A stretch of DNA of 64,000 bases, from NCBI RefSeq assembly GCF_030815865.1, contig NZ_JAUSXI010000001.1:1612001-1676000 (forward strand), read 5' to 3'. Each line of letters begins with the position of its first letter. Positions within the stretch are counted from its first letter, which is position 1. This DNA is from Arthrobacter globiformis. GTDB lineage: Bacteria > Actinomycetota > Actinomycetes > Actinomycetales > Micrococcaceae. The notes under the pieces were generated by a model. The model had not been told where the DNA came from. It ran no database searches and saw only the letters and a program-made list of their open reading frames with translations. Shown here piece after piece: positions 13,007 through 26,000 of the stretch. The translations under genes were made by a program, and so were the position numbers.

Positions 13007-14119
13007 TTACTTGGTGATCGGGCCGAGGACCGGATCGTCCACGTAGGCCGTCTTGACGTTTTCCTTGGTCACGATGACCGGCTCCAGCAGGTAGGCCGGA
13101 ACGGTCTTGACCTTGTTGTTGTAAGACTTGTCGTCGTTGATCTCAGGCGTCTTGCCGGCCTGGATGTCCTTCACCATGGTGATCGCGTGCTCAACGAGCT
13201 TGCGGGTGTCCTTGTTGATGGTGGAGTACTGCTCGCCGGCCATGATGGACTTGACGGACTGAACCTCGGAGTCCTGCCCGGTGATGACCGGAACAGGTTT
13301 GCCGTCGGCCTTGACAGACGTCAGCACGGCGCGGGCCAGAAGATCATTCGGGGACAGTACGCCGTCCAGGGGAGCGCTACTGTAGGAGCCGCTCAGGAGG
13401 GTATCGGCGCGCCTCTGGGCGTTTTCACTCTTCCAAGCCTGGGTTACGGCCTGTTCGAAGGATGTCTGGCCGGAAAGCACCTTGAGGGTGCCGTCGTCGA
13501 TCTTCGGCTTCAGGACGCTCATGGCGCCGTCGAAGAAGACCCTCGCGTTGGCGTCGTCAGGGGAGCCGGCGAAGAGCTCGATGTTGTAGGGGCCGGAAGG
13601 CTTCTTGGCCTTCAAGCCGTCCAGCAGCGCCTGGCCCTGGAGCTCACCGACCTTGAAGTTGTCGTAGGCCACGTAGTAGTCCACGTTCTCGGTGTTCAGC
13701 AGCAGGCGGTCGTAAGCGATGATGGTGGCGCCGGCGTCCTTGGCCTGCTTCAGCTGGGTGCCGAGCTGGGCGCCGTCGATTGCGCCGACGATGATGACCT
13801 TGGCGCCCTTGGTGATCATGGCGCTGATCTGGTTCTGCTGCTCGGATACGCCGGCGTTGGCGAACTGTACATCCGGCTTGAAGCCTGCCTGGCTGAGGCC
13901 GTCGTTGAACAGCTTCTCTGCCAGGACCCAGTTCTCACTGGTCTTCTGGGGGAGTGCGACGCCGATCGAGGAGCCCTTGGGGAAGGCCTCGCCGCCGGCG
14001 GTTCCGCCGCCCGTTGTGCCGGTATCGGAACGGCCGCAGGCTGTCAGCGCCAGTGCCGCAATGGCAGCGATCGCTGCCGCCTTTCCTGCTTTACCAATCA
14101 TTCGCATTGCTTGGTTCAC
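13007..14119 (-). CDS. chvE: Sugar ABC transporter substrate-binding lipoprotein (ChvE-like)
   Basis: 370 aa. Signal peptide with lipobox LTAC (about residue 27), then a type I periplasmic-binding fold: IGVALPQKTSENWVLA, IIVGAIDGAQLGTQL, IIAYDRLLLNTENVDYYVAYDN, and near the end KVKTVPAYLLEPVIVTKENV, which is typical of ChvE/multiple-monosaccharide receptors. It should bind aldoses outside the membrane and deliver them to the MmsB permease encoded just upstream. Start GTG 14119 is used here; ATG at 14107 is an alternative, and neither has a strong Shine-Dalgarno. Last gene of the mmsA-mmsB-chvE unit. The exact sugar is not predictable. Confidence 0.88.
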   Translation of the reverse strand: MNQAMRMIGKAGKAAAIAAIAALALTACGRSDTGTTGGGTAGGEAFPKGSSIGVALPQKTSENWVLAEKLFNDGLSQAGFKPDVQFANAGVSEQQNQISAMITKGAKVIIVGAIDGAQLGTQLKQAKDAGATIIAYDRLLLNTENVDYYVAYDNFKVGELQGQALLDGLKAKKPSGPYNIELFAGSPDDANARVFFDGAMSVLKPKIDDGTLKVLSGQTSFEQAVTQAWKSENAQRRADTLLSGSYSSAPLDGVLSPNDLLARAVLTSVKADGKPVPVITGQDSEVQSVKSIMAGEQYSTINKDTRKLVEHAITMVKDIQAGKTPEINDDKSYNNKVKTVPAYLLEPVIVTKENVKTAYVDDPVLGPITK

Positions 14120-14160
14120 TTTCTTTAGGGGTGGGACATGCTTCCGGGGAGCGGCAGGGC

Positions 14161-15438
14161 TCAGGCTTCCCGGGAGATGGTTTCTTTCGTGGAAGTAACT
14201 TCGTCAGGCTGGAGCGGGGTGCCGCCGCTGGGGCGGTTGAAGCTCTGCGTCAGCATGCCGATGATGGAGCGCTTGCCCTGGCTCTTGTTGTAGACGTCGA
14301 ACGCGACGGCGATCAGCAGGACCAGGCCCTTAATGATCTGGGTCAGGTCGGCGCCGACGCCGAGGAGCTGCAGGCCGTTGTTCAGCACGGCCATGACCAG
14401 GCCACCGACGATCGAGCCGATCACGGTACCCACGCCGCCGGTCACCGCTGCACCGCCAATGAACACAGCTGCGATGGCGTCCAGTTCCCAGCCCACGCCG
14501 TCGAACGGTCCGGAGGCCGTGGAACGGCCCACGAAGATCATGCCGGCGAGGCCAGCGAGGATGGCCATGTTCATCATGACCAGGAAGTTGACCTTCTTGG
14601 ACTGGACGCCGGAGAGCTCGGCCGCGTGGCGGTTGCCGCCAACCGCGTAGATGTGGCGGCCGACGACGGTTTTGGAGGCGACAAAACCGTAGATCAGAAC
14701 CAGGACGGCAAGGATGAGGCCGGGGATCGGGAACGAGGTTCCCGGCCGGCCCGTGGCGAACAGGTACGTGGCGTACAGGATGGCGCCGCAGACCAGCACG
14801 AGCTTGGTGACGACGACCCAGCCCTCGGGGACCTCGGCGCCGAGGGCCTTGGCGGTGCGGCGGGCGCGGAGTTCACTGAAGATCACGAACGCGACGCCCA
14901 GCAGGCCGAGCAGCAGGGTGAGGTTGTTGAACCCGGTGTTCGGGCCGACCTCGGGAAGGTAGCCGGAACCGATGTACTGGAAATCGGCGGGGACGGGGAT
15001 GGTGTTGGACTTTCCGACGAACTGGTTGAAGCCGCGGAACAGCAGCATGCCGGCCAGCGTCACGATGAAGGCTGGAATCCCCACATAGGCCGTCCAGAAC
15101 CCTTGCCAGGCGCCGATCAGGGCTCCCAGCGCGAGTCCGAGCAGAATGCCCAGATACCAGGGGATGCCCCAGTCCCTGATGGCCAGGGCCACTGTGACGC
15201 CGACAAATGCCGCCACGGAGCCGACCGACAGGTCGATGTGGCCAGCGATGATCACCAGCACCATGCCGATGGCCAGGATCAGGATGTAGGAGTTGCCATT
15301 GAAGAGGTTGATGACGTTGCCCGGGGTGAGCGTGCGGCCTTCGGTGGCGATTTGGAAGAAAACGATCAGTGCAACCAGGGCGAAGATCATGCCGAATTGA
15401 CGGGTGTTGCCGCCAAAGAGCTTCTTGAGCGCGTTCAT
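14161..15438 (-). CDS. mmsB: Multiple-monosaccharide ABC transporter permease (MmsB/GguB)
   Basis: 425 aa integral membrane protein of the BPD_transp_2 (RbsC/XylH) family with about 10-12 hydrophobic segments, beginning FALVALIVFFQIATEG. The family motif AGHIDLSVGSVAAFVG and the later GGAAVTGGVGTVIGSIVGGL are clear. The length exceeds RbsC (about 320 aa) and fits the longer XylH/GguB group. An AAGGA site lies upstream of ATG 15438. It sits between mmsA (44 bp away) and chvE (41 bp away), forming the membrane channel of the importer. Confidence 0.92.
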   Translation of the reverse strand: MNALKKLFGGNTRQFGMIFALVALIVFFQIATEGRTLTPGNVINLFNGNSYILILAIGMVLVIIAGHIDLSVGSVAAFVGVTVALAIRDWGIPWYLGILLGLALGALIGAWQGFWTAYVGIPAFIVTLAGMLLFRGFNQFVGKSNTIPVPADFQYIGSGYLPEVGPNTGFNNLTLLLGLLGVAFVIFSELRARRTAKALGAEVPEGWVVVTKLVLVCGAILYATYLFATGRPGTSFPIPGLILAVLVLIYGFVASKTVVGRHIYAVGGNRHAAELSGVQSKKVNFLVMMNMAILAGLAGMIFVGRSTASGPFDGVGWELDAIAAVFIGGAAVTGGVGTVIGSIVGGLVMAVLNNGLQLLGVGADLTQIIKGLVLLIAVAFDVYNKSQGKRSIIGMLTQSFNRPSGGTPLQPDEVTSTKETISREA

Positions 15439-15482
15439 TGTGTCAGTCCTTGTTCTGGAAGGTTCTGGAGGATTCCAGAGGT

Positions 15483-17039
<1,557 letters not shown>

Positions 17040-17107
17040 GTGCCCTTACGCCTCCAATGCATTGACTTCGTTGTCTTCCCTGCAATCCGCAGGGCCGTCT
17101 GATGAAA

Positions 17108-17155
17108 AAAGTAGATGGAGCATGCCCTTGTCGTCAAGTCTTTAACGCAACGGCG
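17108..17155 (-). promoter_or_regulatory. Promoter and likely ROK operator of mmsA-mmsB-chvE
   Basis: On the minus strand a -35 box TTGACG (17137-17132) and a -10 TACTTT (17113-17108) are 18 bp apart. The -35 lies in a 30-bp element (17126-17155) that, read on the plus strand, is CCTTGT-N-GTCAAG-N3-TTAACGCAACG and recurs at 18385-18414 ahead of the ROK regulator gene. Shared placement over two -35 boxes argues for a common repressor site. Confidence 0.6.
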
Positions 17156-17168
17156 GGATAACGAAACG

Positions 17169-18359
17169 CTACGTGCGCCGGATTCCGGCGTGCTGGAAGA
17201 CCAGAGACGCGGCCCCCAGGGCCTCGGCCCGGTCATTCAGCGAGGACATGGTCAGGGTGGTGGTTTCGCCGATGACCGGCACGGCGTGCCGCACCAAACC
17301 TCGCCGGATGGGGTCCAGCAGGATGTCGCCCAGCCCCGCCAGTGGGCCGCCCACCACAATGACCTCCGGGTTGATCAGGTTGGCTACATTCCCGAGCGCC
17401 CGGCCCACCGCGAGGCCGGCATCGTCCACCACGCGCAGGGTGGCGGCATCCCTCGCAAGGGCTTTGCGAACGATGTCCCCGGGGGTCAGCGGGCGCTCCT
17501 CGCCGCGGCTGAGCAGCTCGATCATGGTGGTGGTGGAGGCGATGGTCTCCAGGCACCCCCTGTTGCCGCAGCGGCAGATCAGCCCGTGTTCGTGGATGGT
17601 CGCATGGCCGATCTCGCCGGTGATCCCGACGTTGCCGTAGTACGGGTTGCCGTTGAGGATCAGGCCCGCGCCAATGCCGGATCCAATTTTCATGAACAGC
17701 AGGTTGCTGATGCCGCTGTGCGGTCCCCAGGTGACCTCGGACAGTGCACCGAGATTCGAGTCATTGTCAACGAATATGGGAAACTGGAACGCCTCTTCGA
17801 GTCGCTCCAGGATGTCGATGCCCACCCACTCGGGCAGGATCGCCCCCTGTGCCACGGTGCTGGTCCGGCGGTCAATCGGGCCGGGGATTCCGACGCCGGC
17901 ACCCACCACGGCGCTGCGCTCCACGCCGCTGTCCGCCAGCAGTTTTTCGAGCAGGGCGACGGCGGCCTGGATGCCCTGCTCTGCCTGGTGTCCGAGGGGC
18001 AGGAGCACCGATTCCTCGGCGATGATGTGGTAGCTGAGCGAGGCGAGAACCACCCGCAGGTGCCGCCGGCCGAAGTCGATGCCCACCGCCACGGCGCCGT
18101 TGCTGTTGAGCCGGACGTTGAGTGCGCGCCGCCCGGAACTGGTGGTCGGCTCGGTGGAGGCAAGACCGGAGTCCTGCATGATCTTGACGATGTTGGACAC
18201 TGTTGCGGTGGACAGTCCCGTCTGCCGCGCGAGCTCCGCCTGGGTCGAAGGGCCGTTTAGCAGGCATTCGATGATCCGCTGCTGGTTCAGGTGCCTGAGT
18301 GCGGATTGCGACCCGGGGTTCTTGGTTCGGCTCCTCGTTGAGCTCGATGGTGAGGGCAT
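17169..18359 (-). CDS. ROK family transcriptional regulator (XylR/NagC type)
   Basis: 396 aa. An N-terminal winged HTH (residues about 20-80: LNQQRIIECLLNGPSTQAELARQTGLSTATVSNIV) is fused to a ROK sugar-kinase-like domain with GIDFGRRHLRVVLA and the zinc motif CRCGNRGCLE. Such proteins are sugar-responsive repressors. It lies 130 bp upstream of the mmsA operon on the same strand and its own upstream region carries the same 30-bp element, so it likely controls itself and the importer. ATG 18359 follows the -10 box by 7 nt without a Shine-Dalgarno, so the message is probably leaderless. The inducer is unknown, presumably a sugar carried by the importer. Confidence 0.88.
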   Translation of the reverse strand: MPSPSSSTRSRTKNPGSQSALRHLNQQRIIECLLNGPSTQAELARQTGLSTATVSNIVKIMQDSGLASTEPTTSSGRRALNVRLNSNGAVAVGIDFGRRHLRVVLASLSYHIIAEESVLLPLGHQAEQGIQAAVALLEKLLADSGVERSAVVGAGVGIPGPIDRRTSTVAQGAILPEWVGIDILERLEEAFQFPIFVDNDSNLGALSEVTWGPHSGISNLLFMKIGSGIGAGLILNGNPYYGNVGITGEIGHATIHEHGLICRCGNRGCLETIASTTTMIELLSRGEERPLTPGDIVRKALARDAATLRVVDDAGLAVGRALGNVANLINPEVIVVGGPLAGLGDILLDPIRRGLVRHAVPVIGETTTLTMSSLNDRAEALGAASLVFQHAGIRRT

Positions 18360-18569: not shown

Positions 18570-19388
18570 GTGAAGCTGGCGCTGATGCAGGCGAACTCCA
18601 GTGTTTTGGACATCGAACGGAACTGCGGAGCCATTGAGCGCGCGGCGCGGGCGGCTGCGGAGGCGGGTGCCGCGGTGCTCCTGACCCCCGAGCTTTTCCC
18701 CGTGGGCTACGCCCCGCTGCGAGTCAGGGCGGAGCTGGATCCCGACGTCCTGCCCGGCATCCGGCAGACCCTTGCCGGCATCGCTGCCACACATCGCATC
18801 GCGCTGGTCTACAGCCTGCCGGCCGTCACGGCCGACGGGCAGTGGCGGATCACCGCTACGGTCCTGGACAACCGCGGGAACGAATTGCTCAGCTATGCCA
18901 AGGTCCACCTTTTTGGTCCGGAGGAGGCCAGGGCGTTCAGCCCTGCGGAAGCACCCCCCGCCGTCGTCGATCTGGGCGGCATCAAAGCCTCGCTGGCCAT
19001 CTGCTACGACGTGGAGTTCCCGGAGACGGTGCGGGCGGCCGCCGCGGCCGGCGCCGACCTGCTCCTGGTTCCCACTGCCCTGGCCCACGGCTTCGAGTCC
19101 GTTCCACAGGTGCTGCTGCGTGCCCGGGCGCTGGAGAGCCAGCTGACAGTCGCCTATGCCAACCACTCCGGGGAGGAGGACGGCTGCGTCTTCCTGGGCG
19201 GAAGCGTCATTGCCGGGCCCGACGGCGAACTGCTCGCCGCCGCGGGCCCCGGCCCGGAACTGCTGTACGCGGAGGTCAGCGCCGAAGCGGCCCGCAAGGC
19301 TCGCGAGGACGTGCCCTACCTGCGCGAACGCCGCCCTGATGTTTACCGCGCCTGGGAGGAGAACGGCGGCGGCATTAATCAGGGCTAG
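18570..19388 (+). CDS. davA: Nitrilase-superfamily amidase, DavA-like (5-aminopentanamidase)
   Basis: 272 aa. The catalytic triad of the carbon-nitrogen hydrolase fold is present: Glu41 (TPELFPVGY), Lys111 (SYAKVHLFG) and Cys145 (ICYDVEFPE). The SYxKxHLFG, ICYDxEFPE and YANxSGxED-like stretches resemble P. putida DavA as I remember it, which turns 5-aminopentanamide into 5-aminovalerate. A DavB-like flavoprotein, whose product would be that amide, is encoded 4.5 kb downstream in the same cluster. Start GTG 18570 is chosen for GAGGTGA at 18558-18564. The 3' end overlaps the convergent pucR-type gene by 14 bp. Alternative: another omega-amidase or carbamoylase of the family. Confidence 0.68.
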   Translation: MKLALMQANSSVLDIERNCGAIERAARAAAEAGAAVLLTPELFPVGYAPLRVRAELDPDVLPGIRQTLAGIAATHRIALVYSLPAVTADGQWRITATVLDNRGNELLSYAKVHLFGPEEARAFSPAEAPPAVVDLGGIKASLAICYDVEFPETVRAAAAAGADLLLVPTALAHGFESVPQVLLRARALESQLTVAYANHSGEEDGCVFLGGSVIAGPDGELLAAAGPGPELLYAEVSAEAARKAREDVPYLRERRPDVYRAWEENGGGINQG

Positions 19389-21012
19389 GTGGCAGCCCGT
19401 CCACGTACTGCAGCGCAATCCAGAGTTCGGCCCGGACCTGCGCCTGGTTCAGGTCGGTGTCCAATAGCTCGGCCACCGCGTTGATCTGCCGCCGGACGCT
19501 GTTCCGGTGCAGGCCCAGCGCCTTGGCGCTGGCATCCCAGTTCCCGTTCTCGCCGAGCCACGCCCTCAGTACGGACAGGTGGGCGGTCCGGCGGTCGCTA
19601 TCCTGGCTGAGCACCGGCTCCAGCAGCCGCTCGGCCAGCATGGTTCCGGCTTCCTGCCCCAGCAGTCCGGCGACCGTCCACGTCACTTCACCCACCCGGG
19701 CGCTCTGGCCGGTGCTCTGGACGCGCTGCCGCAGCGCCGTCACCTGCTGGTAGGCGCTGCCCAGATCCGTGAGCTCGGTGGTGTCCCCGATAACCAACCG
19801 CCACCCGAGCTTCTCGACCTCGGCAAGCAGTGCGTCGTCCACCCTTAGCCGGGTGATGGCGGCGAAGCCGTAGTCTGTGATTTCCACGAGCTTGGTGTCG
19901 AACAGGCGGCGCCACTGCAGCAGCTCCCGGACCGGGCCCTCCGCGGTGCGTCCGGCGGCCTGCCCCGCCCTGGTGGCCGGCTCCGCCCTGATGCCCTGCA
20001 CAACGCGCAACGGACCGGAGCGCGTGGAGGAAGTGCTCTGGGCCAGCAGGTCCCTGAGCCCGTTGATGTGCCGCGCCCCGCCGGCGGTCAGGCTGTCGGG
20101 GTGCAGCAGCAGCGACGTCGCCAACTGGCTCGGTGCCAGTGACCCGCTGGTCCGTTGCCGGACCAATAGCTCAAGGAGCCCGACGGCGGAGGAGACCACG
20201 CTGTTCTGCGCGGGCGTCAGCGGCGAGTCAGTACCCAGCACCAGCGCGCCAAGGTTCGCGTCGCGGGTGCTGCGCAGCGGGTGCCCGAACACGAGCGAAG
20301 ATCCGGGGACGTCGAAGGAATCCATCTCCACCCTCGGCCCGCTGCCGCCCAGGAGCCGGTCGAGCAGCGGCTGCAGGGTGGCGACCTCGACGCCTGAGCC
20401 CGCCCGGGCGCGCACCCGCCCGTCCGCGCCGACCAACATGGCCCATACGGGAACCCGCTGCACCAGCGCAGCCAGGAGCTCATGTTCGGGCCGGGCGGAC
20501 AGGACGGCGCGCATCAGTTGCCTGTTCGTGTCCGCGAGGTGGCGGAACACCTTCGCGTTGTCCGACTCCAGTAGCTGGGAGAACTCGAGCCCGATGGCCG
20601 CGAATGGGACCGTGCTGGGCACCTTCACCAGGGTCAGGTTGTGCCGGACGCAGGCGTCCACCACAGTGTCCGGGACAGCACTGAAGTACGGCTCCAGGCC
20701 GAAGCCCAGTGCCCCGACCCCGGCCTTCACCAGGCGCCCGACGTAGGCGTCAACCCGGGCAGCGTCACCCGCGTCGCCAACGAACGGCAAACCTGCCGTG
20801 AGGAGGAATTCGCCGTCGAGCAGGTATGGCGTGGGGTCCTCCAGTTCACTCGGCTCAACCCACCGCAGCAGCCCGGAAGCGTTGCCGCCGTCGTGCAGTA
20901 CCGTGAGCTCGGGCGGCAGTTTCGCCAGGAACTGTTCCAGGGTGACGACACTCAGCCGCTCCGCCGCCGCACTGGCTACCGGGGCGATTCGCGTTCCTGC
21001 CTCAGGCGACAT
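19375..21012 (-). CDS. PucR family transcriptional regulator
   Basis: 545 aa from ATG 21012. N-terminal PucR sensory domain (LSVVTLEQFLAKLPPEL onward, with LDGEFLLTAGLPF and GFGLEPYF), a GAF-like middle, and a C-terminal PucR HTH (LRAWLGENGNWDASAKALGL then HRNSVRRQINAV). PucR regulators usually activate catabolism of purines, amino acids or amides in response to the substrate. The start overlaps the end of the Alr-like gene by 11 bp (TGA at 21004-21002), so both are cotranscribed. The position inside the DavA/DavB/permease cluster makes it the likely cluster regulator. Confidence 0.87.
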   Translation of the reverse strand: MSPEAGTRIAPVASAAAERLSVVTLEQFLAKLPPELTVLHDGGNASGLLRWVEPSELEDPTPYLLDGEFLLTAGLPFVGDAGDAARVDAYVGRLVKAGVGALGFGLEPYFSAVPDTVVDACVRHNLTLVKVPSTVPFAAIGLEFSQLLESDNAKVFRHLADTNRQLMRAVLSARPEHELLAALVQRVPVWAMLVGADGRVRARAGSGVEVATLQPLLDRLLGGSGPRVEMDSFDVPGSSLVFGHPLRSTRDANLGALVLGTDSPLTPAQNSVVSSAVGLLELLVRQRTSGSLAPSQLATSLLLHPDSLTAGGARHINGLRDLLAQSTSSTRSGPLRVVQGIRAEPATRAGQAAGRTAEGPVRELLQWRRLFDTKLVEITDYGFAAITRLRVDDALLAEVEKLGWRLVIGDTTELTDLGSAYQQVTALRQRVQSTGQSARVGEVTWTVAGLLGQEAGTMLAERLLEPVLSQDSDRRTAHLSVLRAWLGENGNWDASAKALGLHRNSVRRQINAVAELLDTDLNQAQVRAELWIALQYVDGLPPSPD

Positions 21013-22234
21013 GCGGTGCCCCGTCCCCGGGCTCCTCGTAATCCGGGCACTCGTGCGCCTGCGGGAGGCTGTAGGCCCTGGGCAGCCGCGGCGCGATCCT
21101 GTTGATGATCTCGTCGCCGTGGCTTCCAATGGCGGCGCCCCATTCATCGGCGCTCGCGGCCCCGTCCCGGGGGTCGCCAAACAGGACGGCCGTATCACCA
21201 ACATTGATTCCGCCGGGCTCGGGGCCCAGGTCCACCATGAACTGATCCATGCACACCTTGCCGATCACCGGAACCCTCCTGCCGCCCAGCTGCACCACGC
21301 TCCGGCCGGAAATGCCCTTCGGAATGCCGTCCGCGTAGCCCAGCGGGATCAGTCCCAGGAACCTCGGCTCGTGGGTGATGGCCTGGTGCTCGTAGCTCAC
21401 ACCGGTGCCGGCCGGAACCTTCTTCACCAGCACCACGGGAGCGGTAACTGCCAGGGCAGGCCGGAGGCCGTAGTCGGCGGGGTCAAGGTGGTCCGCCGGA
21501 GCCAGGCCGTAGATGGCCAGCCCCGCCCGCACCATGTCGAACGAAAATTCCGGCCGGTCCAGGATGTTCGCCGAACTGGAGACGTGCCGCAGTTCCGGAT
21601 CCAGCCCTGCCTCGCGGGCTTGCCTGACGGCTTCCTCGAAGGCGTCCACCGCACCGGCATTCCCGGGGTGGGCGGGAACGTCCGCCCAGGCCAGGTGGGT
21701 CCAAATGCCCCTCACATGGAGATTCCCAGCCAGTTCCGCCCTCCGTGCAGCGGCCACCAGGTCAGGCCAGTCCTCGGCACGGGCGCCGCCGCGGCTCAGG
21801 CCGCTGTCCAGCTCAAGGTGGACGGCGGCGGCCTGTCCCAGCGAGCGCGCTATGCCGGCGACGGCGTCGAGTTGGGCGATGCTGCCCAGGGACATGTCGA
21901 CGTCGTGGCTGACTGCCTCACGGATGGTTTCGCTCGACCCGGAGGCGAGGTACAGCCACGACAGAACCGGTGCCGTGATGCCCGCCTGGCGCAGGGCCAG
22001 GGCCTCGGTGAGCTGCGCCGTGCCCAGCCAGTCCGCGCCGGCGGCGAGGGCTGCGCGGGCCACGTCGATCAGGCCATGGCCGTAGCCGTTCCCTTTCACC
22101 ACGGCCATGAAATGGGGTGCAGGAGTGAGGGCCCGGAGGGCACGCACGTTGTCTGAAATGGCGGACAGGTCCACGCTGACCTGCCCGGAAAGCACCGCCT
22201 CGGGCGCGTTTGTTTGTTGTGCATTACGTCTCAT
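21002..22234 (-). CDS. alr: Alanine racemase-fold amino acid racemase, possibly broad-specificity
   Basis: 410 aa, PLP-dependent fold III racemase. The PLP Lys47 sits in AVVKGNGYGHG (usual form KANAYGHG). The second catalytic base, equivalent to Tyr265 of Geobacillus Alr, is the Tyr of VSYEHQ, 19 residues before GYADG, as expected. At the position aligning with Tyr354 of that enzyme, which limits substrate size, the sequence reads APRLPRAY, giving Pro. Together with a cluster containing a cationic amino acid permease and a lysine monooxygenase-like protein, this raises the chance that it racemises lysine or other larger amino acids. A housekeeping alanine racemase remains possible. ATG 22234 follows a TATAGT -10 box by 8 nt. 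Confidence 0.82.
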   Translation of the reverse strand: MRRNAQQTNAPEAVLSGQVSVDLSAISDNVRALRALTPAPHFMAVVKGNGYGHGLIDVARAALAAGADWLGTAQLTEALALRQAGITAPVLSWLYLASGSSETIREAVSHDVDMSLGSIAQLDAVAGIARSLGQAAAVHLELDSGLSRGGARAEDWPDLVAAARRAELAGNLHVRGIWTHLAWADVPAHPGNAGAVDAFEEAVRQAREAGLDPELRHVSSSANILDRPEFSFDMVRAGLAIYGLAPADHLDPADYGLRPALAVTAPVVLVKKVPAGTGVSYEHQAITHEPRFLGLIPLGYADGIPKGISGRSVVQLGGRRVPVIGKVCMDQFMVDLGPEPGGINVGDTAVLFGDPRDGAASADEWGAAIGSHGDEIINRIAPRLPRAYSLPQAHECPDYEEPGDGAPHVA

Positions 22235-22242
22235 GCCAGAAC

Positions 22243-22281
22243 ACTATAGGTCATTTTGCACACCCGTGAGACACGGCTCAC
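22243..22281 (-). promoter_or_regulatory. alr promoter with GTGAG-N6-CTCAC palindrome
   Basis: Minus-strand -10 TATAGT (22248-22243) precedes ATG 22234. A perfect inverted repeat GTGAG-N6-CTCAC (22266-22281) covers the -35 position. It lies in the divergent gap between the racemase-pucR unit and the permease-davB unit, so it is a candidate site for the PucR-type regulator or another factor. Confidence 0.5.
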
Positions 22282-22336
22282 ACACCTAGGCTGGAGACAC
22301 GGAAAGCCCCCAACTACCCACGAACGGACGTCAACG

Positions 22337-23875
22337 ATGACTGTGCCCACCCAAGCAGGACAACGGCCTCCCGTGCAGGCCGTCCGCCCCGGACTGGCAG
22401 CCCAGCTGCTCCGCCGCAAGCCGATCGGGCAGATGGTCCAGGAAGCCGAGACAGGCCAGGGCGGAACGCGCCTCGTCCGCAGCTTCGGAGTCATGCAGCT
22501 GACGATGATCAGCGTGGGCGCCACCCTCGGCACCGGCATCCTGGTGATCCTGGGCGAGTCCGTGCCGCTGGCCGGGCCGGCCATCTGGATCTCGTTCGCC
22601 ATCGCCGGCCTGGCCGCGCTGCTGTCCGCGGTGTCCTACGCCGAAATGGCCGGTCTGGTGCCGGCTGCGGGCTCCAGCTACTCCTACACGTACGCCACGA
22701 TGGGCGAGGGCATGGCCTGGATCTGCGGCTGGTGCCTCGTGCTCGAATACGCCGTTTCCGTGGCTGCCGTGGCAGTGGGCGCCGGCCAGTACGTCAACGA
22801 ATCGCTGGCGGTCTTCGGGCTGGCCCTGCCGGATGCGGTGTCGCAGCCGCCGGGCGGCGGCGGCTTAGTCAACATCCCGGCCATGGTGATTGTGGTGCTG
22901 GCCATGGTTCTGCTGGTCCGCGGCGCCAAGGAAAGCGCGTGGATCAACACCGCGATCGTGCTGGTCAAGGTGGGGATCCTGGTCTTCTTCTGCGCGGTGG
23001 CCTTCACCGCGTTCAACGGCGGGCACTTCGAGCCGCTGCTGCCGATGGGGGCCGCCGGCGTCTCCGCCGCCGCCTCCCGGGTCTTCTTTTCCTACATCGG
23101 CTTCGACGCCGCCTCCACCGCGGGCGAGGAAGCCCGCAACCCTAAGCGCGACCTGCCCCGGGCAATCATGCTCTCGATGCTGATCGTCACCACCATCTAC
23201 GTGCTGGTTGCCGTTGCCGCCATCGGCGCCCGCCCGTGGGGCTGGTTCGACGGCACGGAAGCCGCACTGGTGAAGATCCTGGAGGAAATCACCGGCCAGC
23301 CGTGGATCGCGCTGATGTTCGCCGTCGGCGCTGTGCTCGCAATTGCCAGCATCGTGCTGACTGTCCTCTACGGACAGACCCGCATCCTTCTTTCCATGTC
23401 CCGCGACGGGTTGGTTCCCCGCATCTTTGGCCGCGTCTCCCACCGCACCGGCACGCCCGTTGCCGGAACCCTTATCGTGGGAACCGCCGTCGCCCTCACC
23501 GCCGGGCTGGTCCCGCTCGGGGCGCTCGCAGACGCCACCAGCATCGGCACCCTGTTCGCCTTCGCCCTGGTGAACGTGGCCGTCATCCACCTCCGCCGCA
23601 CCCGGCCGGAGCTTCCGCGGACCTTTCGGGTTCCGCTGTTCCCGCTGACACCGATCCTGGGCGCGCTGATGTGCGTCTACCTGATGGCCAACCTGGGCGC
23701 CGAGACGTGGGTGACCTTCGGGATCTGGATGCTCGTGGGACTGGCCGCCTACTTCGGCTATGGCAGGCGGCACTCGCGGGTGGCCGCGCTGGGGCAGGAG
23801 GAATACCGTGAACTATCCGCCCGTGATTCTTCCCCAGCTCCCGCACCTGCTGAACAGACAACTTCGCACCAGTAA
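22337..23875 (+). CDS. APC/CAT family cationic amino acid permease
   Basis: 512 aa from ATG 22337. About 12 transmembrane segments (for instance ISFAIAGLAALLSAVSYAEM, IPAMVIVVLAMVLLV, IALMFAVGAVLAIASIVLTV). SYSYTYATMGEGMAWICGW and CLVLEYAV match the pattern of CAT-type transporters for lysine, arginine and ornithine, and FFSYIGFDAASTAGEEARNP is the family's second hallmark. An in-frame start at 22256 would add a hydrophilic leader with no match to the family. It stands 33 bp upstream of the davB-like gene, so the pair should import and then oxidise the same amino acid. Divergent from alr-pucR. Confidence 0.85.
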   Translation: MTVPTQAGQRPPVQAVRPGLAAQLLRRKPIGQMVQEAETGQGGTRLVRSFGVMQLTMISVGATLGTGILVILGESVPLAGPAIWISFAIAGLAALLSAVSYAEMAGLVPAAGSSYSYTYATMGEGMAWICGWCLVLEYAVSVAAVAVGAGQYVNESLAVFGLALPDAVSQPPGGGGLVNIPAMVIVVLAMVLLVRGAKESAWINTAIVLVKVGILVFFCAVAFTAFNGGHFEPLLPMGAAGVSAAASRVFFSYIGFDAASTAGEEARNPKRDLPRAIMLSMLIVTTIYVLVAVAAIGARPWGWFDGTEAALVKILEEITGQPWIALMFAVGAVLAIASIVLTVLYGQTRILLSMSRDGLVPRIFGRVSHRTGTPVAGTLIVGTAVALTAGLVPLGALADATSIGTLFAFALVNVAVIHLRRTRPELPRTFRVPLFPLTPILGALMCVYLMANLGAETWVTFGIWMLVGLAAYFGYGRRHSRVAALGQEEYRELSARDSSPAPAPAEQTTSHQ

Positions 23876-23908
23876 GACAACACACGAGACCACGGAGACA
23901 GACCTTCC

Positions 23909-25633
23909 ATGACAACCGCTACCGAACTGCCGGCATCCGACCCGTCCAGCGCCACCACGGCGTCGGGCCTGCCCGGAGCACCAGGCCAGGCCCCGGTGAC
24001 CATGCTGAACCCGGACTTCCCGTTCAGCTACGACCACTATCTCTCCCACCCTGACGGACTGGGTTCGGTGCCGCCGGAACTGTACGGCACCGAAGTCGCC
24101 GTGGTGGGTGCCGGACTGTCCGGGCTGGTGACAGCGTACGAGCTGATGAGGCTTGGGCTGCGTCCGGTGCTTTACGAGGCGGACCAGCTTGGCGGACGCC
24201 TGCGCACGGCCAGCTTCCCGTCTGCCCCGGATGTGGTGGCAGACCTGGGCGGCATGCGGTTCCCGGTGTCCGGCAAGGCGTTCTACCACTATGTGGACCT
24301 GCTGGGACTGGAGACGCGGGACTTCCCCAACCCGCTGGCCCCGGTAACCTCCAGCACCGTGATTGAGCTGGCGGGGCAGAAGCATTACGCCACCACCTCG
24401 GCAGACCTGCCGCCGTTCTTCCGCGAAGTGGCCGACGCCTGGAAGGCCGCCGTGAACGACGGCGCGCAGTTCACGCAGATGCAGGAAGCCATCCGGGCGA
24501 GGGACACGGCCCGGATCAAGGAGCTGTGGAACGAGCTTCTTCCGGAGCTGGACGAGGAGACCTTTTACGGCTTCATCGCCGGCAGCCAGGCGTTCCGGAA
24601 GGCGGGCTTCGCGCACCGCGAGGCATTCGGCCAGGTCGGCTTCGGCACCGGCGGCTGGGACACCGACTTCCCCAACTCCATCCTGGAAATCCTCCGCGTC
24701 GTCTACACCGACGCCGACGACCAGCACCGCCTCATCGCCGGGGGAGCGCAAAGGCTCCCCGAGACACTCTGGCGCCACGCGCCGTCGGGCATGGTGCACT
24801 GGCCGGCAGGGACGTCCCTGGCGTCCCTGCACTCAGGCTCCCCGCGCGGAGCCGTGGAACGGATCAGCCGTGAGGCGGACGGCAACCTCCGCATCCGGGA
24901 GCGCTGGGGGAGGGAAGCCTCCTACCCGGCGGTGGTCACCACCTGCCAGTCGTGGCTGCTGTCCACCCGGATCCACACCGAGGAGGCGCTGTTCCCGGCT
25001 GAGCTGTGGACGGCGATCGAGCGCTCGCACTACATGCAGTCGTCCAAGACGTTCGTGATGGTGGACCGGCCGTTCTGGAAGGACATCGACCCGGAAACCG
25101 GCAGGGAGGTCCTGTCCATGACGCTGACGGACCGGCTGAACCGGGCCACCTACCTGCTGGACAACGGCCCGGACCAGCCCGCCGTGATCCTGCTGTCCTA
25201 CACGTGGAACGACGACGCGCTCAAGTGGCTGGCGCTCGACGCCGACGAACGCGTGGAGCTGATGCTGCACTCGCTCGAGCAGATCTACCCCGGCGTGGAC
25301 ATCGCCAGCCACATCGTGGGCCAGCCCATCACCGTCTCCTGGGAGGCCGACCCCAACTTCATGGGCGCGTTCAAGGCCAACCTGCCCGGCCACTACCGCT
25401 ACCAGCAGCGGCTTTTCACCCACTTCAAGCAGGACCAGCTGCCGGAATCCCAGCGCGGCATCTTCCTCGCCGGCGACGACGTGTCCTTCACGGCAGGCTG
25501 GGCCGAGGGTGCGGTGACCACGGGACTAAACGCGGTGTGGGGCGTGGTGAACCACCTCGGCGGCTCATCGGCACCCGGCAACCCCGGCCCAGGCGACCTG
25601 CTGGACGAGCTGGGCCCGATCAGCCTGGACTAG
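23909..25633 (+). CDS. davB: FAD-dependent amino acid monooxygenase, DavB-like (lysine 2-monooxygenase)
   Basis: 574 aa. The FAD-binding site VAVVGAGLSGLVTAYELMRLG is near residue 70, followed by YEADQLGGRLRT and DLGGMRFPVSGKAFYHYVD. Several long stretches (FGTGGWDTDFPNSILEI, MQSSKTFVMVDRPFWKD, VSWEADPNFMGAFKANLPGH, GIFLAGDDVSFTAGW) resemble lysine/phenylalanine/tryptophan 2-monooxygenases of the amine oxidase family as I recall them, more than plain monoamine oxidases. That reaction gives an amide, CO2 and water; with lysine the product is 5-aminopentanamide, which the DavA-like amidase of this cluster would hydrolyse. A GGAG site lies 11 nt before ATG 23909. Tryptophan 2-monooxygenase or L-amino acid oxidase activity is the main alternative. 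Confidence 0.75.
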   Translation: MTTATELPASDPSSATTASGLPGAPGQAPVTMLNPDFPFSYDHYLSHPDGLGSVPPELYGTEVAVVGAGLSGLVTAYELMRLGLRPVLYEADQLGGRLRTASFPSAPDVVADLGGMRFPVSGKAFYHYVDLLGLETRDFPNPLAPVTSSTVIELAGQKHYATTSADLPPFFREVADAWKAAVNDGAQFTQMQEAIRARDTARIKELWNELLPELDEETFYGFIAGSQAFRKAGFAHREAFGQVGFGTGGWDTDFPNSILEILRVVYTDADDQHRLIAGGAQRLPETLWRHAPSGMVHWPAGTSLASLHSGSPRGAVERISREADGNLRIRERWGREASYPAVVTTCQSWLLSTRIHTEEALFPAELWTAIERSHYMQSSKTFVMVDRPFWKDIDPETGREVLSMTLTDRLNRATYLLDNGPDQPAVILLSYTWNDDALKWLALDADERVELMLHSLEQIYPGVDIASHIVGQPITVSWEADPNFMGAFKANLPGHYRYQQRLFTHFKQDQLPESQRGIFLAGDDVSFTAGWAEGAVTTGLNAVWGVVNHLGGSSAPGNPGPGDLLDELGPISLD

Positions 25634-25651
25634 TTCCCGGTGGGGAGCGAA

Positions 25652-25887
25652 ACCAAGCCCGCTGGTTGAGCCTGTCGAAACCAAGCCCGCTGGTTGAGCC
25701 TGTCGAAACCAAGCCCGCTGGTTGAGCCTGTCGAAACCAAGCCCGCTGGTTGAGCCTGTCGAAACCAAGCCCGCTGGTTGAGCCTGTCGAAACCAAGCCC
25801 GCTGGTTGAGCCTGTCGAAACCAAGCCCGCTGGTTCAGCCTGTCGAAACCAAGCCCGCTGGTTGAGCCTGTCGAAACCAAGCCCGCT
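25652..25887. repeat. 28-bp tandem array (8.4 copies) of a GTTGAGCCTGTCGAAA element
   Basis: Eight full 28-bp units start every 28 bp from 25652 to 25875, plus a partial ninth. Each holds GCCCGCTGGTTGAGCCTGTC; the seventh unit has GTTCAGCC instead. There are no spacers between units, so it is a satellite and not CRISPR. It begins 18 bp after the davB stop. The core is a variant of a dispersed element (GGTTGAGCTTGTCGAAACC) that also appears inside mazG. Confidence 0.95.
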
Positions 25888-25900
25888 AACCTTGATCTCG

Positions 25901-26000
25901 ACAAGCTCGATCAGCGGTTGCCCAGCTCGATCAGCGGTTGCCCAGCTCGGTCAGCGGTTGCCAAGCTCGATCAGCGGTTGCCCAGCTCGGTCAGCGGCCG
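25901..26000. repeat. 20-bp tandem array (5 copies) of a CAAGCTCGATCAGCGG element
   Basis: Five exact-length 20-bp units close to CCCAGCTCGATCAGCGGTTG. The stop codon of the minus-strand gamma-carbonic-anhydrase-like gene (TGA, complement of 25991-25993) and its last two codons lie in the fifth unit, so the array supplies that gene's C-terminus. With the 28-bp array it fills the 357-bp gap between the davB stop and that gene. Confidence 0.92.

Follow-up and report, generated by a model that had tools for sequence, protein, structure and literature searches.

The stretch of DNA analysed here, a window of 64,000 nucleotides, spans positions 1612001 to 1676000 of the 5.11 Mb genome of Arthrobacter globiformis, a single contig (genome code G000), and it carries a cluster of five genes in which a davB-like gene for a flavin-dependent amino acid monooxygenase is accompanied by genes for a nitrilase-fold amidase, a regulator of the PucR family, a racemase and an amino acid permease. 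An initial annotation had read this set as a DavBA-type route of lysine catabolism with a racemase of its own. The five open reading frames were confirmed in the arrangement then described: the davA-like amidase gene is convergent with the pucR-alr pair, from which the permease-davB pair diverges, a layout which is indeed distinct from that of amidase-davB pairs. The features are as follows, in window coordinates.

18570..19388, + strand: CN-hydrolase (nitrilase-fold) amidase, probably a 4-guanidinobutyramide hydrolase; GTG start; PF00795; residues E41-K111-C145
19375..21012, - strand: PucR-family transcriptional regulator; PF07905 and PF13556 (PucR and HTH_30); the ATG at 21012 gives 545 amino acids
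21002..22234, - strand: Alr-fold racemase dependent on pyridoxal phosphate, an optional module; Ala_racemase_N and Ala_racemase_C; TIGR00492
22218..22262, no strand: candidate PucR operator within the divergent promoter, an inverted repeat TGTGCA-N33-TGCACA that is conserved across 18 aligned promoters
22266..22281, no strand: second inverted repeat, GTGAG-N6-CTCAC, adjoining the first
22337..23875, + strand: amino acid permease of the APC superfamily (CAT/BcaP-like), probably an importer of cationic amino acids; PF13520 and PF13906 (AA_permease_2 and AA_permease_C)
23909..25633, + strand: flavin L-amino acid 2-monooxygenase, probably an arginine 2-monooxygenase, as judged from its match to 3we0, trees and the pocket signature RWTDAHYTWFNAGW; Amino_oxidase domain

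Pfam domains bear out the regulator, the racemase and the permease as previously named, and the pucR frame, starting at 21012, overlaps the end of alr. In the amidase (141.7 bits against PF00795) direct reading located Glu41, Lys111 and Cys145 at the positions that had been announced, while its best matches in the Protein Data Bank (PDB) are the amidases 5jqn and 3hkx, at 234 bits. The permease scores 491 bits with the BcaP model, 482 with 2A0306 and 310 with the CAT model TIGR00906, all of them under cut-off. Among the named loci, which are the best 80 of 218 Micrococcaceae loci found in the contig set (three of them short contigs), davB is accompanied by the permease in 79, by pucR in 78, by the amidase in 76 and by alr in 29.

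The monooxygenase and its pocket

As anticipated by the initial annotation, the flavoprotein resembles the lysine and tryptophan 2-monooxygenases, matching the L-amino acid oxidase/monooxygenase of Pseudomonas AIU 813 (3we0) with 819 bits and tryptophan 2-monooxygenase (TMO; 4iv9) with 201. It is 97-98% identical to its homologues in Arthrobacter ipis, Arthrobacter sp. AFG20 and A. globiformis NBRC 12137. Its identity to the AIU 813 enzyme is 61%, within the range of the 130 enzymes of the window's type (56-63%), the 11 AIU 813-type enzymes of its own family standing at 63-68%. A search of that family found davB in 76 of 245 genomes, at 80 places; stretches of at most 20 kb were taken round 60 of these (61 counting the window). 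Of the 19 places left out of the neighbourhood set, 15 are from the same genus and the other four are not. Across the phylum, 12 of the 296 genomes searched gave a davB match.

A tree of 73 rows (the window, AIU 813, five of the named 80 and, once eight near-duplicates had been dropped, 66 of the 74 loci outside that set) separates three groups. Fifteen rows, made of AIU 813, Rhodobacterales and actinobacterial amidase-davB pairs, are split off from the window by a branch with support 100; the window's own Micrococcaceae group has 49 rows (support 98); and the remaining nine (support 100) are Tsukamurella and what we label Streptomyces-like, that is, genomes whose enzyme matches Streptomyces proteins. 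A careful tree rooted on TMO-like outgroups from Pantoea and Caballeronia recovers the AIU 813 group at 100/100 and the window's group at 98/97. The grouping with monoamine oxidases, which had been proposed as a check on the family assignment, was not seen. A rooting on two amine-oxidase paralogues of this genome was discarded, its branch lengths of 10 being meaningless.

The residues that line the pocket largely set the AIU 813-type rows apart from the other two groups. In AIU 813 numbering, and according to PMC5832979, Asp238 binds the cation of the side chain, position 258 is bridged by water to the alpha groups, position 515 lines the side chain (a glycine there being tied to the wider pockets of TMO and PAO) and position 254 is tied to the balance between oxidase and monooxygenase. 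Asp238 is retained in 72 of the 73 rows, its equivalent in the window being Asp253, and the window's flavoprotein also keeps the equivalents of W235, W418, Y416 and R102. At position 258 every one of the 15 AIU 813-type rows has Gln, and 57 of the 58 others have His; position 515 is Ala in 14 of those 15 and Gly in 58/58; position 254 varies between Cys, Phe, Leu and Tyr in the AIU 813-type rows and is Ala in the whole of the 58. The window's enzyme shares with the AIU 813 enzyme (PDB 3WE0 and 5YB6-8) and with DavB/DavA its family, the aromatic cage, the equivalents of Arg102/Tyr416 and Asp238 and a nitrilase-fold amidase partner, but it belongs to a separate group and differs by Q258H, A515G and C254A, the first two corresponding to His273 and Gly530 of the window's protein. 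A wider, still anionic pocket would suit arginine. The 14-residue signature RWTDAHYTWFNAGW summarizes the difference over 156 sequences: of the 130 window-type enzymes 129 carry it, as do the nine Streptomyces-like and Tsukamurella enzymes (9/9), whereas none of the 17 of the AIU 813 type does. The single row with Asn in place of Asp238 is L140, a second, divergent davB copy in genome G436, with signature RWTNAQYTWFNGGW, which perhaps acts on yet another substrate.

In a quick tree of 72 rows, the amidases of the 14 AIU 813-type loci that possess one form a cluster of their own with support 90, so that amidase and monooxygenase have split in parallel. The amidase gene adjoins davB in 8/8 Streptomyces-like loci. 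Compared with AIU 813-type loci and DavBA, the latter by way of the AIU 813 enzyme, the window has its amidase 4.5 kb from davB, and it has PucR, the permease and an optional alr.

Arginine and its competitors as substrate

Arginine 2-monooxygenase is an old biochemical activity, and Streptomyces and Arthrobacter have long been known to degrade arginine by means of an oxygenase. In the literature searched, this activity is hardly tied to genes, the term 'arginine 2-monooxygenase' occurring in few of the papers listed, none of which concerns a bacterial gene by its title; nor did the search, judged from titles and the openings of abstracts, bring up an account of the present cluster. We favour, with some confidence, the view that these genes, under the control of PucR, lead into this arginine monooxygenase, or 'oxygenase', pathway. 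The permease would import a cationic amino acid, most likely L-arginine, which the flavoprotein would decarboxylate oxidatively to 4-guanidinobutyramide, carbon dioxide and water; the nitrilase-fold amidase would hydrolyse the amide to 4-guanidinobutyrate and ammonia; a distant ureohydrolase of the guanidinobutyrase type would then produce gamma-aminobutyrate (GABA) and urea, and a GABA transaminase would send GABA onward. The chemistry is probably that of a 2-monooxygenase followed by an amidase, and arginine is the better-supported substrate. A monooxygenase with a pocket for cationic side chains and a CN-hydrolase amidase are present, and this alone does not separate arginine from lysine.

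Further indications come from the neighbourhoods of related genes. Outside the named set, a ureohydrolase of the agmatinase family lies within 8 kb of davB in ten of 49 window-type loci, and at less than 100 bp in six of them (L123, L125, L130, L132, L168 and L174, from four genera of other Micrococcaceae), as against none of the 16 AIU 813-type loci within the same 100 bp. Three genomes, G447, G432 and G310, contain both kinds of davB, one copy each; in all three (3/3) a ureohydrolase lies 60-99 bp from the window-type copy, and there is none within the 20-kb stretch of the AIU 813-type copy. In L125 the order is ureohydrolase-davB-permease, with pucR, and the amidase beside a GABA transaminase (TIGR00700, 611 bits for a cut-off of 507), while L174 joins a gene resembling succinate-semialdehyde dehydrogenase (SSADH; 442 bits, under the cut-off of 730) to ureohydrolase, davB and amidase. 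On plasmid NZ_LR134452.1 of Tsukamurella tyrosinosolvens a single operon assembles the same four functions, ureohydrolase, permease (59-60% identical to the window's), CN hydrolase and flavoprotein, the ureohydrolase being 2.2 kb from the flavoprotein; it has an XRE regulator, and no PucR or alr was found in that stretch. The AIU 813-type locus L128 has instead a GABA-type transaminase, an acyl-CoA dehydrogenase and a CoA transferase, a set that resembles the conversion of lysine to glutaryl-CoA; the best model for the CoA transferase is succinate-glutarate CoA-transferase, at 355 bits under a cut-off of 750.

Another argument for arginine comes from the azalomycin producers named Streptomyces violaceusniger, in which, as PMC5082578 and PMC10322714 have it, an arginine monooxygenase makes 4-guanidinobutyramide from arginine and a 4-guanidinobutyramide hydrolase is described: the flavoprotein P0132, named after the S. 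violaceusniger group, has the same 14-residue signature as the window's. PMC4737276 also describes an amidinohydrolase of the ureohydrolase family for amino-marginolactones. These producers activate the product to a polyketide starter (PMC5082578); in the window it is probably catabolised.

The downstream functions would have to be supplied from elsewhere in the genome. Three matches to the arginase family were found there, and one ureohydrolase (1269318-1270508 of G000), some 360 kb from the cluster, is 65% identical to that of the Tsukamurella operon; among solved structures its best match is guanidinobutyrase 3nio (277 bits), followed by guanidinopropionase (266), proclavaminate amidinohydrolase (252) and agmatinase (232). 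From Arthrobacter sp. KUJ 8602 a zinc guanidinobutyrase that is identical with D-arginase is on record (Arakawa et al. 2003, as cited in PMC11271267). One GABA transaminase exceeds its curated cut-off in the genome (match 4229536-4230783 of G000). In the surroundings of the ureohydrolase (G000 1268657-1272181, or L120:6657-10181), this gene follows one for an XRE-type regulator, which shares 40% identity with its Tsukamurella counterpart, and the next gene resembles, from its first residues, a thiamine-diphosphate enzyme.

Several observations weigh against arginine. No ureohydrolase lies nearby in any of the 80 named loci (0/80), all from the Arthrobacter group, or in the window. In the family as a whole a ureohydrolase is almost universal (it occurs in 221 of the 245 genomes, and davB in 76), so that co-occurrence with davB at the level of genomes had to be rejected as evidence. 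By count alone, the contrast of 6/49 with 0/16 is not decisive, and L119, a locus of the AIU 813 type, carries a ureohydrolase (48% identical) on the opposite strand at a distance of 1.4 kb. L125 also contains, 2 kb from davB, an acyl-CoA dehydrogenase 37% identical to that of L128, and L128 alone among the 16 AIU 813-type loci displays the full lysine-like neighbourhood: a CoA transferase occurs in L134, a transaminase in L107 and the ureohydrolase in L119, and none of the six genes searched for is present in the other 12. NCBIfam names the distant ureohydrolase an agmatinase. P0132 is tied to the arginine monooxygenase activity by species name only. The AIU 813 enzyme itself accepts ornithine, lysine and arginine (PMC5832979). 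Finally, the outgroup-rooted tree joins the window's group to the AIU 813 group (94/100) and not to the Streptomyces-like rows; as an approximately unbiased (AU) test did not reject the two alternative arrangements of the three groups (p 0.37 and 0.34), the sister placement of the AIU 813 group is not conclusive, and we do not claim window-type and Streptomyces-like enzymes as one clade. The signature that they have in common could be ancestral.

The sister placement also speaks for the route that had first been proposed, in which DavB turns L-lysine into 5-aminopentanamide and DavA makes 5-aminovalerate from it, glutarate following. This route is further favoured by the level of identity to the AIU 813 enzyme, a lysine 2-monooxygenase/oxidase, by the retention of D238, W235, W418, Y416 and R102, by the CN-hydrolase partner, a mark of lysine as opposed to tryptophan enzymes in PMC12462448, and by those sources that call relatives lysine 2-monooxygenase. 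It has to face the position of the flavoprotein outside the AIU 813 group itself, the three substitutions common to the window's group, an amidase that does not join the AIU 813-type partners, the ureohydrolase, GABA transaminase or SSADH-like genes that adjoin some relatives, and the fact that CsiD was not found in the genome. The succinate-glutarate CoA-transferase model NF052585 reached at best 320 bits there, under cut-off; as L128 falls under the same cut-off, this particular search is not informative. What stands of the initial annotation is a 2-monooxygenase of the basic amino acid family with its nitrilase-fold amidase, an amino acid permease and a PucR regulator, and what recedes, in view of tree group, pocket and neighbours, is lysine, which appears the less likely substrate and which we consider rather improbable.

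An enzyme of broad specificity for basic amino acids, or an ornithine monooxygenase, would lead from ornithine to 4-aminobutanamide and directly to GABA, lysine and arginine being side substrates. It would need no ureohydrolase, as befits the 80 named loci that have none nearby, and among the three substrates ornithine gives the AIU 813 enzyme its highest monooxygenase kcat/Km (200, with 74 for lysine and 24 for arginine, measured at different pH; PMC5832979); yet it leaves unexplained the guanidinobutyrase or agmatinase-type ureohydrolases that adjoin davB, and we hold it to be less probable still than lysine. As for a tryptophan 2-monooxygenase of the indole-3-acetamide route to auxin, it is upheld by names in several databases and by a study of Arthrobacter pascens ZZ21 (PMC5855665), which named the homologue in that strain iaaM because of its sequence similarity and gives it 88% identity with a protein from Arthrobacter sp. 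P2b, the source of locus L040. The match to TMO is weak, D238 is retained where TMO has Val (PMC5832979), and the partner is a PF00795 protein, whereas the TMO-like gene of Pantoea adjoins an 'amidase family protein'; IaaM/IaaH, while of the same superfamily and reaction type, show about 30% identity on the side of IaaM, with its Val for Asp238, and a different amidase family. Moreover, PMC5855665 reports the iaaM transcript of ZZ21 as unchanged with tryptophan. We have rejected this reading on the TMO score, on D238 and on the amidase family, and regard it as extremely improbable.

Should arginine be the substrate, genes of the window's group named lysine or tryptophan 2-monooxygenase, once in support of a claim of auxin synthesis, would need renaming; residues 258 and 515 would provide a simple rule to separate the two kinds; and a route from arginine to GABA would exist in many soil bacteria of the Arthrobacter group. 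Source names for the relatives vary between lysine and tryptophan 2-monooxygenase, many being just placed in the flavin monoamine oxidase family. According to the rhizoSMASH work, the lysine enzymes of Pseudomonas are prone to mislabelling as enzymes for tryptophan, from which the family of the amidase separates them (PMC12462448). The present comparison suggests that a further split, between arginine and lysine, is needed. The P2b protein, cited as a tryptophan 2-monooxygenase in the ZZ21 article, is probably misnamed.

Racemase, divergent promoter and surroundings

The racemase, which had been understood as a device to bring D-lysine into the pathway, is of the alanine-racemase type, with 282 bits in TIGR00492 for an equivalog cut-off of 168, and, among solved structures, 325 bits for alanine racemase 1vfh against 113 for the broad-specificity enzyme 4dyj and 96 for lysine racemase 4dza. 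It is present in 32 of 130 window-type loci and is missing from L014-L016, the three named loci of highest identity; when the 115 davB loci that have both permease and pucR are placed on a tree, its distribution (32 with alr, 83 without) demands at least seven changes. Being of that type and absent from most relatives, it is not integral to the cluster but an optional module. Nor is it the sole alr of the cell, since another alanine racemase gene, 45% identical to it, lies elsewhere in the genome (match 4029246-4029641). It may permit the use of a D-enantiomer.

The candidate operator at 22218-22262 occurs in its strict 44-base form in 30 of the 80 named loci and, in a looser form, in 29 of the 32 alr-bearing loci and 17 of the 83 that lack alr. 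Its bare pattern has one match in the genome and a reversed control pattern three, so that rarity is no evidence here and the argument is its conservation. The neighbouring GTGAG-N6-CTCAC repeat has one match in the window against 0.08 expected from shuffles. A search for TGTGCA-N33-TGCACA at the amidase gene and at the distant ureohydrolase did not find it. PucR would bind this repeat and control the cluster.

The repeat overlaps the first codons of alr, and in the alr-less loci L014-L016 the same stretch opens pucR (MGRNAQQ... as compared with MRRNAQQ... for alr). These nearly identical first codons look as if alr had been cut out, or inserted, directly behind the candidate operator. One may go further and imagine a dedicated Arthrobacter PucR regulon for both enantiomers of arginine, in which an alr-type arginine racemase would feed D-arginine to the L-arginine 2-monooxygenase, a single 45-bp operator would drive both transcripts, and alr would be swapped in and out directly behind it, so that pucR, in loci that lack alr, would start with almost the same codons; we find this doubtful, to about the same degree as the lysine route.

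Upstream of the amidase gene, at 13007-18359, lie genes of a sugar ABC transporter and a ROK repressor, which adjoin the amidase in many of the named loci too. Directly after davB come two arrays of tandem repeats, at 25648-25887 (8.6 copies of a 28-bp unit, 99% matches) and at 25904-25997 (4.7 copies of a 20-bp unit).

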